From NCBI RefSeq assembly GCF_001192795.1, contig NZ_DF968181.1, positions 2,036,974 to 2,100,973 of the forward strand: a stretch of 64,000 bases of DNA. Direction: 5' to 3'. This document shows, piece by piece, positions 23,527 to 63,099 of the stretch. Each line of letters begins with the position of its first letter. Position 1 is the stretch's first letter. A program made the translations under genes and the position numbers. Below the pieces are notes generated by a model. It was given only the letters and a program-made list of their open reading frames with translations, had not been told where the DNA came from and made no database searches. This stretch comes from Flexilinea flocculi. Its GTDB lineage: Bacteria; Chloroflexota; Anaerolineae; Anaerolineales; Anaerolineaceae.

Positions 23527-23600
23527 GGCCCATTAGCTCAATTTGGCAGAGCAATTGACTCTTAATCAATGTGTTCTGGGTTCGAGTCCCAGATGGGTCA
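23527..23600 (+). tRNA. tRNA-Lys (CUU)
   Basis: Acceptor GGCCCAT/ATGGGTC, D-arm TTAGCTCAATTTGGCAGAGC, anticodon stem ATTGA/TCAAT with loop CTCTTAA (anticodon CTT), and T-arm CTGGGTTCGAGTCCCAG. Confidence 0.96.
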
Positions 23601-24030
23601 CAATCCATTTTTTTACAATTATTAATCGATATTGAGAAAACGAAACATAAAGTTTTTTTTTCGATTTTTTTTATCAGTTACAGTGATCATGTCAAATTGA
23701 AAAACAAATCGTCTGATATATATTGGGCTGAAAATTACTGAATGGATAAAACAGCATCAAGACAGATGTGAATCCGCCCCTCTTGACTGCTTTCGAATCT
23801 TATTTTCTCCTTCCAAATCATCAACAAATAGTACTATTTCGACAAAAAATATTCAATTTTAATACTTTTTTGATTCGAAAAATTTATCCATATCTCGAGT
23901 TGCTGGGATTGCAAACCCTTCCCTCTCTTGCATTCATCCTCTCCCCGTTACACTTTTTCTTTTCTTTTTGTTTTGTGTTTTGCACTAAACGGTTTTATTT
24001 TCATGTCAAGGGCTAGAAATCATGGAAATA
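23601..24030. other. Gene-free AT-rich stretch
   Basis: Contains only a Phe-rich low-complexity open frame (23768-24016) that I do not believe is a gene. Weak MITE-end-like phrases occur, such as GATTCGAAAAATTTATCC and ATCTCGAGTTGCTG near 23872-23907. Confidence 0.4.
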
Positions 24031-24035
24031 TTCTG

Positions 24036-24172
24036 TATAATTTAGATATCTGAGGTGAGGAAATCCACCGCTCACGCACTGAGTCCGTAAACGGCCAGTC
24101 AAGGAAGACGCTGGATGTGGGTGGCCCAGCCAGATAATTATGTAGCCTGATTAATCGCCAGGCTACTTTTTT
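24036..24172 (+). ncRNA. Unidentified structured RNA, copy 1, with promoter -10 and terminator
   Basis: TATAAT (24036-24041) precedes a segment with four nested stems. P1 is TATCTG (24047-24052) with CAGATA (24131-24136). The others are GTGAG/CTCAC, ACTG...CCG/CGG...CAGT and GCTGG/CCAGC, giving a compact multibranch fold. A strong terminator follows: GTAGCCTG/CAGGCTAC plus T6 (24142-24172). An almost identical segment lies at 25040-25128, where P1 has changed to GATCTG/CAGATC, a compensatory change. No open reading frame; no family recognised. Confidence 0.7.
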
Positions 24173-24210
24173 ATTTGTCGACCGTGTTGTATTCCTGCTA
24201 TAAATTCCGA

Positions 24211-24331
24211 TATAATATAGTTAATCCTGGGGTGAGAAGGCGCCCCTCACTGTCATTGAGCGATGCCGACGTGGCGCACGGCGTACGGGATTATCTAAAT
24301 AGAAAAATTTTCTGATTTTTCTATTTTTATT
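24211..24331 (+). ncRNA. Second unidentified small RNA, related 5' motif
   Basis: TATAAT (24211-24216) with a possible TTGTAT 18 nt upstream. The transcript would start TTAATCC (24221), which pairs with GGGATTA (24287-24293). Inside are GTGAG/CTCAC (24232-24249), as in the neighbouring RNA, and a GCCGACGTGGC hairpin. An A/T-rich terminator hairpin follows: AATAGAAAAAT/ATTTTTCTATT plus TTTATTT (24298-24331). Not recognised as a known family. Confidence 0.55.
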
Positions 24332-24352
24332 TAATTCCCAGATATTTAGGCT

Positions 24353-24601
24353 TTATAGCTCTGTCGCCGGTTTTGGTTTTTTTCCAGACTCTAACAATTC
24401 TATAAATTTGTTCGCCTGTTCTAAAGTGATATCATCCACATCCGCCCAAGAGTGCGTACCATAATCCATGATACGATCCTCCATCACATTATCATTATCA
24501 ACTATCCAGCCTTTCCCTTTGATGTATATATATGGGATAGAATTTTCTTTTTTTGCGATAATTCCTATATCGTTCAGGTAACAGTAGTAAGGATTTTTCA
24601 T
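24353..24601 (-). CDS. Small hypothetical protein
   Basis: 82 aa (MKNPYYCYLNDIGIIAKKEN...). Mixed alpha/beta composition with many Tyr, Ile and Asp residues, and no signal or membrane segment. I do not recognise the family. It lies 40 bp downstream of the DUF4926-like gene on the same strand and may form a two-gene unit with it. Such pairs often accompany polymorphic-toxin or immunity genes, but nothing here proves that. It is probably a real gene, since codon-like composition is maintained throughout. Confidence 0.55.
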   Translation of the reverse strand: MKNPYYCYLNDIGIIAKKENSIPYIYIKGKGWIVDNDNVMEDRIMDYGTHSWADVDDITLEQANKFIELLESGKKPKPATEL

Positions 24602-24641
24602 TTCGATATGATTCTATTTTTTATTTCCAGAATTTTAGTCT

Positions 24642-24956
24642 TTATTGATCCCTCAGAGATAATATATCATCCTGGCAAATTAATTCCGTGCGATAATCAT
24701 CACCATCACGAATATCAGCTTCATAAGTGACGCCATGCTCATAAATTTCGACGATCGTTGCCTCTTCTCTCGTTTTGAGGATCACCTTATCATATTGTCT
24801 TATTATTGTCTTAACGCTTTTCATGGATTCAGTAATTCGAAATTTGGAAAAGTCTTTTAAGAAAGAAGGGAGAACTTGTTGTTGTGTTGTTTTTGCGCGA
24901 AGCGCAAAAACAACACAACAACATTTATTCCTTTCCATATTTGGAATCGCTGTCAT
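24642..24956 (-). CDS. DUF4926-like small protein extended in frame by a MITE
   Basis: The native protein is about 60 aa from Met at 24824 (MKSVKTIIRQYDKVILKTRE, then ATIVEIYEHGVTYEADIRDG). It resembles the small SH3-like DUF4926 family (VxL...GTVVEVYE.G..YEVEF). The MITE at 24830-24952 has inserted exactly over the start. The 9-bp target duplication contains the ATG, so a second ATG exists at 24956. Element plus duplication is 132 bp, so the frame stays open and adds 44 residues (including RNKCCCVVFALRAKTTQQQ). Which start is used is unknown; neither has a strong Shine-Dalgarno sequence. Confidence 0.6.
   Translation of the reverse strand: MTAIPNMERNKCCCVVFALRAKTTQQQVLPSFLKDFSKFRITESMKSVKTIIRQYDKVILKTREEATIVEIYEHGVTYEADIRDGDDYRTELICQDDILSLRDQ
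24830..24952. mobile_element. Hairpin MITE copy (123 bp) with perfect 9-bp TSD
   Basis: Ends CAGTAATTCGAAATTTGG and CCATATTTGGAATCGCTG. The 22-bp perfect core arms lie at 24877-24898 and 24902-24923 with a GAA loop. TCATGGATT is duplicated exactly at 24821-24829 and 24953-24961. This is the type copy for the family in this window. Confidence 0.93.
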
Positions 24957-25035
24957 GGATTCTATTTAACACACGTTGTCCGAATTTATTTTTTAATTTC
25001 GGGCATGGAAAAAGATGAAAAAATCCTTTATCATA

Positions 25036-25129
25036 TATAGATCTGAGGTGAGGAAATCCACCGCTCACGCACTGAGTCCGTAAACGGCCAGTCAAGGAAG
25101 ACGCTGGATGTGGTGGCCCAGCCAGATCA
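25036..25129 (+). ncRNA. Unidentified structured RNA, copy 2
   Basis: From 25040 to 25128 it repeats the 24047-24136 segment almost base for base. Differences are one G deletion in the P4 loop and a double change in P1 (GATCTG/CAGATC). It is preceded by the AT-rich CATATATAG, a possible -10. Instead of the simple terminator of copy 1, it runs into a long different hairpin at 25134-25219. Confidence 0.65.
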
Positions 25130-25133
25130 TTAA

Positions 25134-25219
25134 GGAACCGCTTGAGGTAGAGAGACAGGCGCTATTACGCGCGAGCAATTGATGCCGGGGAGCCTGTCCG
25201 GCCAGGCGGTTCAATTTTT
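25134..25219 (+). ncRNA. Long hairpin with T-tract, 3' part of the copy-2 RNA or separate terminator
   Basis: GAACCGC (25135-25141) pairs with GCGGTTC (25206-25212). Inside, GACAGGC pairs with GCCTGTC around a GCGC-rich loop. T8 follows. It could be an elaborate terminator or another small structured RNA joined to copy 2. Confidence 0.55.
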
Positions 25220-27244: not shown

Positions 27245-28705
27245 ATGTTACCCAAGAAGTATCGGTGAATCAAAATAAATTGTTACCATAAGCTGCGGAG
27301 GAAAGGCTGATGGGTAACAAAATGAGTAAGAAGAGCAGGCTGGAATTAGCAACACAAATACAATCCCGATATCTAAAAGCGAACAATGGGGTAAAAGGAA
27401 AAATTCTCGATGAATTTGTCGAGAGCACTGGTTACCACAGGAAGACGGCGATACGTTTATTGCATTCAGATCTTCGACCAAAGACATTCAAAAAGAGACC
27501 TGGGCGGAAAAAGAAGTATCCTCGAGAGATAATCAAAAAGTTGGAACGGTTGTACGAGATCAGCAATTATATCTGCGGACAGCGATTACAGCCATACATT
27601 TCCGAGCTGATAGATATACTGGAGCGATGCAATGAAATGTACTTCACATCTGAGGAAAAACGTCTGCTAACCGAGATGAGTTCGGCAACGATCAATCGAA
27701 ATCTGAGGGAATACAAGAAAAACCACCAAGGAAAAGGCAAAACCATGACGAAGCCCGGCGGATTACTCAAGAAACAGATTGCGATCCGGACGGGGATGGA
27801 CTGGGATGATAATCGCCCAGGTTTTCTGGAGATAGACCTGGTTGCTCATTGCGGGCAATCGGAAGCAGGAGCTTTCTTTTACACATTGACAGCTACCGAT
27901 GTATGCACTGGTTGGACAGATAACTTCATTCTCCGGAACAAATCAAAAGAAGCCGTTGTGGAAGCAATGACTTTGCTTGAATCCCTTTTACCTTATCCCA
28001 TCCTTGGTATTGATTCTGATAATGGCTCCGAGTTCATCAATTATCTCCTTTTTGATTATTGCAACAATCGGGAAAGAAAGATAATCTTCACCCGATCAAG
28101 ACCCTACAGGAAAAACGATCAAGCTCATGTTGAGCAAAAGAACTGGGCCGTAGTCAGACGGTTGCTTGGATATAACCGCTTCTATACTCCAGACCATTTT
28201 GTACTCATTCAGCGTATTTATCAGCTGAACCATGTGTTCAATAATTTCTTCCAACCTGTACGTAAGACCATTGCCAGACCAGACAAAGATGCCGGTGTCT
28301 TTTCTCCTAAATACGAATCTGCTAAAACACCTTTCCGTCGTATCCTTCCATCTGGCGTCTTATCATTTCCTAAAAAGGCCTCTCTTGTAAACCTGTATAA
28401 TGCATCAAATCCCGTCAAGATCCTTGCAGAAATCAATGATCTGCTCCGTATTCTTGCCGAAACTTCTTCTTATCAAACAAAGTAACGATAAAAATTGGCT
28501 GCTTGGGTTTTTTCGCTTTAGGCCAATCCCTATCGTTTATGGTAAAATGCCCCTGCACTTCCAGGGAGTAGAGCTCTGCTGGGGAGCAACTCGAGCACTG
28601 GATGTGCCCAATTTACTATCGTAGAGATGCCTACGCATCTCTACATTTTTCGTGGTCGTTGGGTAACATTTTTATTTGATTCTTCGATCCCCTCAAAGTA
28701 ACATT
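27245..28705 (+). mobile_element. Insertion sequence with rve/DDE transposase and ~46-bp double-motif TIRs
   Basis: Left end AATGTTACCCAAGAAGTATC (27245) continues to a second TGTTACC at 27282. The right end is its inverted counterpart, with GGGTAACATT at 28660 and AGTAACATT ending at 28705. Each terminus thus carries two TGTTAC motifs about 30 bp apart. No clear target duplication. Total about 1461 bp with one gene. Confidence 0.85.
27310..28485 (+). CDS. Transposase with integrase (rve) catalytic core
   Basis: 391 aa. N-terminal HTH region (ATQIQSRYLKANNGVKGKIL, then GYHRKTAIRLL) followed by basic RPGRKKKYP. The DDE triad is visible as GFLEIDLVAHCG (D), GIDSDNGSEFINYL (D) and HVEQKNWAVVRRLLGY (E). 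It resembles the transposases of ISNCY/IS481-like elements annotated as integrase catalytic domain proteins. The gene appears intact (start ATG; a second ATG four codons in). About 220 bp of non-coding tail, including GTAGAGATGC/GCATCTCTAC (28621-28644), separates it from the right TIR. Confidence 0.88.
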   Translation: MGNKMSKKSRLELATQIQSRYLKANNGVKGKILDEFVESTGYHRKTAIRLLHSDLRPKTFKKRPGRKKKYPREIIKKLERLYEISNYICGQRLQPYISELIDILERCNEMYFTSEEKRLLTEMSSATINRNLREYKKNHQGKGKTMTKPGGLLKKQIAIRTGMDWDDNRPGFLEIDLVAHCGQSEAGAFFYTLTATDVCTGWTDNFILRNKSKEAVVEAMTLLESLLPYPILGIDSDNGSEFINYLLFDYCNNRERKIIFTRSRPYRKNDQAHVEQKNWAVVRRLLGYNRFYTPDHFVLIQRIYQLNHVFNNFFQPVRKTIARPDKDAGVFSPKYESAKTPFRRILPSGVLSFPKKASLVNLYNASNPVKILAEINDLLRILAETSSYQTK

Positions 28706-48705: not shown

Positions 48706-48821
48706 CAGCAATTCGAATTATGGATTGACATTTCGAATCCATCAATAAAATTTGTTATTCTTATGGGTTAGCGTAAACTCATAAGAATAACAAATATTTC
48801 ATTTCATATATCGAATCACTA
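48706..48821. mobile_element. Hairpin MITE copy (116 bp)
   Basis: Left end CAGCAATTCGAATTATGG, right end CATATATCGAATCACT. Core TTTGTTATTCTTATG / CATAAGAATAACAAA. Confidence 0.8.
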
Positions 48822-63051: not shown

Positions 63052-63057
63052 AAGATT

Positions 63058-63087
63058 AAAAAACTCCGAAAAATCGGAGTTTTTTAA
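63058..63087. terminator. Terminator after the cupin gene
   Basis: AAACTCCGA / TCGGAGTTT with T6. Confidence 0.9.
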
Positions 63088-63099
63088 TACAGTCTATAA

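Follow-up and report, generated by a model that had tools for sequence, protein, structure and literature searches.

The two near-identical RNA segments of this locus, c1 and c2, belong to a known family, the skipping-rope RNAs (Rfam RF02924), as new diverged members, and in the genomes and mobile elements surveyed this family is strongly and near-obligately associated with small genes for PBECR3, a predicted BECR-fold ribonuclease. Skipping-rope RNAs are probably toxin antidotes, kept in the window (the whole 64,000-nt stretch of the Flexilinea flocculi genome analyzed here) as a cluster without a recognizable toxin. The fuller reading, that the family is a type III-like antidote of BECR nucleases and that c1 and c2, together with the less certain c3 and c4, form an orphan set of it beside an immunity-like ORF, is one that we hold to be fairly probable. 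The features of the array and its surroundings are as follows.

23527-23601, forward strand: tRNA-Lys, 5' of the array
24014-24041, forward strand: promoter of c1, sigma-70-like TAGAAA-16-TATAAT, identified by a 10/12 consensus match alone
24045-24138, forward strand: c1, skipping-rope RNA (RF02924, 38.9 bits); P1 TATCTG/CAGATA, P2 GTGAG/CTCAC, P4 GCTGG/CCAGC, kissing helix CCACC/GGTGG
24142-24172, forward strand: intrinsic terminator of c1, a hairpin at 24142-24166 followed by a T run
about 24216-24299, forward strand: c4, candidate diverged skipping-rope-like RNA (15.5 bits under model R1); P1 TAATCC/GGATTA, P2 GTGAG/CTCAC, P4 GCCG/CGGC, kissing helix GCGCC/GGCGC
24297-24326, no strand assigned: AT-rich hairpin 3' of c4 (-10.0 kcal/mol, 0/200 shuffles as good)
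24353-24601, reverse strand: 82-aa ORF between c4 and c2, related to a phage ORF located directly after a MuF head protein
24642-24824, reverse strand: 60-aa ORF (longer reading 24642-24956), resembling phrog_34731 (E 1.2e-5)
25006-25034, forward strand: promoter-like site of c2, TGGAAA-17-TATCAT, a 9/12 match by consensus alone
25038-25130, forward strand: c2, skipping-rope RNA near-identical to c1 (RF02924, 37.7 bits), with P1 GATCTG/CAGATC
25131-25216, forward strand: c3, diverged skipping-rope RNA abutting c2, with a T run after it; P1 GAACCGC/GCGGTTC, kissing helix ACAGGC/GCCTGT

The duplication of about 90 nt described in the original prediction is borne out: an alignment of 24047-24136 with 25040-25128 has 87 identical columns out of 90 and 3 that differ, and their 90-nt flanks are unduplicated (57/97 and 50/98 aligned columns identical). 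The outermost P1 pair is T-A in c1 and G-C in c2, altered on both sides as had been proposed, and the P4 loop of c2 has one G fewer. The prediction was right about these two copies and missed c3 and the candidate c4. It had also credited c1 with a TATAAT box (24036-24041) and a strong terminator, and here the terminator is secure, its hairpin (-12.8 kcal/mol) being equalled by 0/200 shuffles; the box does sit in a 10/12 promoter match, of a kind to be expected in a stretch so rich in AT (6 as good as that of c1 seen vs 4.4 expected in shuffles). The resulting view of c1 as a free-standing gene agrees with its own promoter-like box and terminator, both of which are enriched in the relatives described below. 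Another TATAAT lies at 24211-24216, at the start of c4, and the hairpin at 24297-24326 may terminate transcription from both sides, that of c4 and that of the ORF convergent with it. The folding energy of the two 90-mers (z -1.8 and -2.3 against shuffles) is by itself weak evidence, and the stronger evidence for structure in c1 and c2 is their match to RF02924 together with covariation in relatives.

Neither the array nor any notable model match is present in the 8 kb after relA in one genome of the same genus and three of the same family, which marks the array as accessory. Insertion at tRNA-Lys was considered and ruled out, the 3' end of the tRNA being unrepeated within the window. Nearby are a perfect long inverted repeat at 24877-24924, between the ORFs and c2, with a GCGCGAAGCGC core and 20 pairs counted, and, 2 kb past the array, a 391-aa ORF at 27310-28485 that reads by eye as transposase-like.

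Both c1 (38.9 bits) and c2 (37.7 bits) exceed the RF02924 gathering score of 36.7 bits in cmscan, which rules out a new RNA family and overturns the earlier description of them as unassigned, on the very terms then set for refuting their novelty. They reach this score even without the GAGATG core of typical skipping-rope RNAs, which is replaced by GAAGACG in c1 and c2, TTGATG in c3, and GCGATG in c4. In a permissive RF02924 scan c3 (25137-25210) scores 24.9 bits (E 0.0076), under gathering, and c4 is reported by none of the RF02924 scans of the window, the permissive one included; in the genome as a whole there are no copies other than c1 and c2 at E 0.001. A covariance model built solely from relatives outside the window (R1) gives the top three ranks among 75 window matches to c1, c3, and c4, in that order, with 21.3 bits for c3 and 15.5 bits (E 0.046) for c4. 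The support that R1 lends c4 is modest and c4 stays a candidate, given that E-value and the rank of c2, a true member, at only tenth. The 14-pair P1 of R1 favors plain hairpins, and the model also picks out many more strong hairpins of this plain kind elsewhere in the window, such as those at 63055-63088 and 48752-48793. Over 396 genomes of the window's class R1 gave two matches and missed the window itself.

Searches for relatives were prone to chance matches: a descriptor scan placed them above true ones, and a first loose pattern for viral sequences yielded mostly such matches. RF02924 is absent at E 0.001 from all 14 control genomes, and at E 1 matches appear in 9/14 of them, so weak matches mean nothing; weak matches in three same-phylum genomes were rejected, one of these matches lying in an apparent protein gene. 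Several diverged skipping-rope RNAs, some of them in tandem, also occur together in Hungatella hathewayi (6 copies) and Candidatus Limimonas (8 copies), and arrays are thus not unique to the window.

The fold supports the family assignment. The four-stem structure that had been predicted agrees with the P1-P4 layout of the family, and in an alignment of 29 of 41 representatives (12 were omitted, mostly for long P3 inserts) P1-P4 and the pseudoknot are paired in 88.3% of cells vs 66.1% in shuffles and under 45% in slid versions of the structure. The covariation that the prediction had asked for is found in these 29 relatives, with two-sided changes in 23/31 pairs. The pseudoknot, already published for the family (PMC7779021, the Rfam 14 paper), joins the P2 loop to the P4 loop, typically as GGY with RCC. 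The proposed pairing of GGTG with CACC belongs here, the P2-loop CCACC being complementary to the P4-loop GGTGG; as an alternative to GTGAG/CTCAC it fails, for the latter is P2 itself, and a switch within P2 is ruled out by the P4 loop being the partner.

Each of c1, c3, and c4 holds this loop complementarity with different letters, by 5, 6, and 5 Watson-Crick pairs, respectively. Random loops equal these helices in 212, 33, and 145 of 5000 trials, a chance of about 0.7 to 4% for each taken singly. Over 15 loop pairs, own loops form 4.13 Watson-Crick pairs vs 2.74 for swapped loops (0/20000 permutations), and own again exceeds swapped in the 12 pairs left when the window RNAs are omitted (0/20000). 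Nine loops tested at first had been picked for apparent complementarity, and the rerun on all 15, weak ones included (three loci have just 2-3 loop-loop Watson-Crick pairs), gave the same result. Each RNA has a kissing helix of its own.

The association with PBECR3 genes was approached from both sides. Starting from the RNA, at least 144 loci were gathered as structure-checked typical members in a pattern-limited search of viral and genome contigs (one of 145 was omitted before counting as a chance match in coding sequence). A homologous ORF of about 125 aa lies directly upstream on the same strand in 66/144 among the matches listed, mostly with a gap of 10-100 nt between ORF and RNA, and all seven representative upstream ORFs tested are PBECR3 (PF18812) above the 30-bit Pfam cut-off. 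The other 78/144 among the matches listed have no PBECR3 ORF, some of them being cut by contig ends. An even sample of 299 genomes from the phylum of Clostridium ljungdahlii contains 17 PF18812 matches in 15 genomes and 26 RF02924 matches in 21. Wherever PBECR3 occurs there in a frame of 85-509 aa, a skipping-rope RNA lies 63-222 nt beyond the domain (13/13, or 12/12 without the seed genome; 2 of the 13 protein matches are below the Pfam cut-off at 22.3 and 21.1 bits, and some are fragments). Twelve of these RNAs are above gathering and one is 0.2 under it at 36.5 bits; protein and RNA share a strand in 11 pairs and are convergent in the other 2, both in genome G953, and these convergent pairs argue against the RNA being a mere 3' UTR element. 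PBECR3 in frames of 1413-2356 aa has no skipping-rope (0/4), and the genomes concerned have no RF02924 match at all. Half of the RNAs in the sample (13/26) lack a PF18812 neighbor, one of them having a PBECR2 fragment upstream. It follows from these 13 and from the 78/144 among the matches listed that orphans are common or that the RNA has other roles.

Starting from the protein, the RNA lies downstream in 7/7 testable named plasmid and phage records, at 54.7-70.3 bits; 8 of 16 matched records were examined, one of which ends with the gene. These seven pairs come from a streptococcal phage and from plasmids of Bacillota and a spirochaete. Among 22 chosen genomes, 20 of which were picked for carrying the RNA, 16/17 PBECR3 matches adjoin it. 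The rli23 model of Rfam (56.4 bits) likewise matches a plasmid region of Priestia that carries PBECR3 and skipping-rope (L378:572-674). Once duplicates are omitted, an upstream promoter match of at least 10/12 is seen at 84/131 distinct loci vs 2.6% of shuffles, and a terminator after the RNA at 82/132 loci vs 11/396 shuffles, both among the matches listed. Distances between proteins and between their RNAs are correlated (r 0.688, 0/2000 permutations, 58 pairs, 3 of the 66 proteins having been omitted as under 110 aa and 5 as near-duplicates), which shows joint inheritance and not contact, as co-inheritance would suffice.

The PBECR domains carried by phages and conjugative elements have been described as predicted ribonucleases that also occur solo in phages (PMC5512222). 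An AlphaFold model of the PBECR3 protein at locus L213 (pLDDT 88.9, 39 sequences) most resembles BrnT (Z 6.6, rmsd 3.3, 75 aligned), a Salmonella toxin, CdiA toxins, and HigB/RelE with Z down to 4.2, all of these being under the Z of 8 that the tool itself trusts, and Foldseek returned nothing at E 0.001 or better for this model. In an alignment of 49 proteins, four residues (H48, H54, P71, and K89) never vary. Phage homologues are annotated as 'spbA protein', and the spbA locus of plasmid pHT1030 was reported to act in plasmid stability (Lereclus and Arantes 1992); the identity of that locus with PBECR3 is a matter of this record annotation.

Linkage to a predicted ribonuclease toxin gene, seen at the level of the family, is not seen in the window. 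PF18812 has no match in the window genome, a wider profile of 49 proteins has no significant match there, the best being E 0.089 with a stop inside, and none of the window ORFs matches the PBECR profile. What does lie between c4 and c2 is the 82-aa ORF. It has one viral relative (39% over 74 columns), which begins 4 nt downstream of a 598-aa MuF protein; the C-terminal part of this protein is long and contains no recognized toxin domain. Immunity ORFs of MuF toxins are usually located directly downstream (PMC5576092), and by the position of its relative the 82-aa ORF may be akin to such immunity genes. It has no family match worth the name in Pfam, NCBIfam, PADLOC, or PHROGs, and a search of plasmids and of 345 further genomes from the class found no relative. 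The 60-aa ORF, for which no viral relative was found, is possibly a second immunity-like gene, phrog_34731 being a phage family without assigned function. Another genome of the same class (L326) encodes a MuF head protein whose C-terminus is PBECR2-like (hhalign 76%, E 2.3e-5), and after it comes a skipping-rope RNA, in the position that an immunity ORF takes in MuF polymorphic toxins.

Other toxin families are found upstream of the RNA in a few loci, and part of the linkage may therefore reflect shared genomic islands. CptN genes precede the RNA at L233 and L090 (above the NCBIfam cut-off), a TenpN-like gene below that cut-off does so at L164, and PBECR4 (L234), PemK, YafQ, and ParE are upstream in a few more. 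CptN is ruled out as a general partner, as 0/5 CptN genes in the 299-genome sample are near a skipping-rope, and we read CptN-type neighbors as toxin islands and not as the main partner. The CptN at L090 has its own 46-nt repeat, and the skipping-rope there need not be its antitoxin; a repeat of this kind was looked for and not found at L233 and L164. At L234:1067-1834 the PBECR4 gene (PF18813, 44.5 bits) stands between two catalogued orphan RNAs, with Bacilli-1 (RF02931, 79.5 bits) on its upstream side and skipping-rope on the other, and Bacilli-1 may be a second BECR-linked RNA. At L182:5973-6383 a 136-aa protein with no Pfam or NCBIfam match occupies the usual toxin position upstream of a high-scoring skipping-rope and is possibly a new toxin. 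An ORF at L003 was dropped as a partner, its hhalign probability against the PBECR profile being 1.6% and not significant.

In the mechanism that we propose, a small BECR-fold ribonuclease (PBECR3 and its relatives) would act as a toxin, and an RNA of about 90-130 nt, transcribed from its own promoter 3' of the toxin gene, would fold into a P1-closed junction locked by the kissing helix that joins the P2 loop to the P4 loop, and in this form would bind the nuclease and inhibit it. Toxicity of PBECR3, its binding by the RNA, and its neutralization are matters of inference here. The window would then hold orphan antidotes with no recognizable nuclease, placed beside the 82-aa immunity-like ORF, and one may speculate that such an array protects against incoming toxins. 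A more inclusive version, in which the family provides RNA immunity for the whole BECR group, from solo PBECR3/SpbA-like proteins to MuF-PBECR2, with private kissing loops helping to prevent cross-protection and the window combining a toxin-free array with a protein immunity gene, is conceivable, and we lean against it.

There are other ways in which an RNA might come to lie beside a toxin gene. Type I-like antisense control, in which the skipping-rope would pair with the toxin mRNA rather than bind the protein, might be expected from an RNA that adjoins the gene and is transcribed separately. However, the RNA is downstream of or convergent with the toxin gene and not antisense to its start, and own RNA-mRNA pairs have no significant advantage over swapped ones, 752/5000 permutations being as good for the start region and 471/5000 for the whole ORF; both tests lean in the expected direction (37 of 62 pairs, thinned) and a weak effect is conceivable, yet we consider this explanation highly improbable. 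An RNA that is the substrate or activating partner of the nuclease, such as a guide or processing target, would account equally for linkage and joint divergence, which suit any RNA-protein partnership, but the strong separate promoter and terminator and the toxin-free copies better suit an antidote made in excess; these points are not decisive, and we regard such a role as quite improbable.

The RNA might instead serve a mobile element as a regulatory, packaging, or target-site RNA, with PBECR3 as a fellow passenger. Many of the loci are in viral sequence or have integrase and lysis genes close by, and half of the RNAs in the 299-genome sample have no PBECR3 neighbor, as this would predict. 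Against it, an association of 13/13 small frames and 7/7 named records is too tight for passengers, and the four giant-protein cases, in genomes without the RNA, show that this association is not a phage marker, which leaves the idea improbable. For the window in particular, the four RNAs could be decaying remnants without function, given that the genome contains no partner gene, that the array is missing at the matching place in four relatives, and that c3 and c4 have diverged. Yet c1 and c2 have stayed alike at 87/90 columns between unlike flanks, the sole pair that differs between them is altered on both sides, and c3 and c4 have each retained complementary loops of their own, so that decay seems rather unlikely. 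An antidote role remains the reading that we prefer.

AbiF is a HEPN protein. A precedent for the antidote reading is AbiF-RCd22, a type III-like system whose RNA (the abiF motif, RF03085) is described as neutralizing the toxin in cis and in trans, and in which AbiF is linked to ancestral Cas13 proteins (PMC12373285). It too pairs a catalogued small RNA with an adjoining toxin gene in phages, and as a case of a catalogued RNA proving to be a type III-like antitoxin it supports the reading advanced here, but its RNA is upstream with two motif copies, whereas in the present case a BECR-fold protein is proposed as the toxin and the RNA is downstream. Type III antitoxins are usually described as tandem repeats upstream of the toxin with a terminator between (PMC5086642). 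The ToxIN, CptIN, and TenpIN systems share with skipping-rope an endoribonuclease toxin and a pseudoknotted RNA antitoxin (here predicted), and differ in having upstream repeats and a ToxN-like toxin, whereas in the 66 RNA-first pairs, among the matches listed, the RNA is a single unit 3' of PBECR3. The solo PBECR forms are of the same PF18812, PF18810, and PF18813 families as the neighbor proteins found here, and where they are treated in PMC5512222 no RNA partner is named. MuF polymorphic toxins offer a further likeness, both in the order of MuF protein, PBECR2-like end, and RNA at L326 and in the viral relative of the 82-aa ORF that follows a MuF protein. Within RF02924 itself, c1 and c2 share the P1-P4 layout, the loop-loop pseudoknot, and a gathering-level score, and the window departs from typical members in its kissing helices of 5-6 pairs vs 3-4, its diverged GAGATG core, and its four-member array with two members below cut-off and no adjoining PBECR3 gene.

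The literature searched, which did not take in the 2017 discovery paper, contained no stated role for skipping-rope. The family has been catalogued as a covariance model, and its partnership with PBECR3 is a new lead on what it does; a near-obligate partner that is a small predicted ribonuclease makes that role directly testable. If the antidote reading is true, a BECR-fold toxin and a non-repeat RNA would join the type III-like systems, solo PBECR3 proteins would gain a control mechanism, and antidote RNAs would be seen to persist as orphan arrays such as the one in the window.
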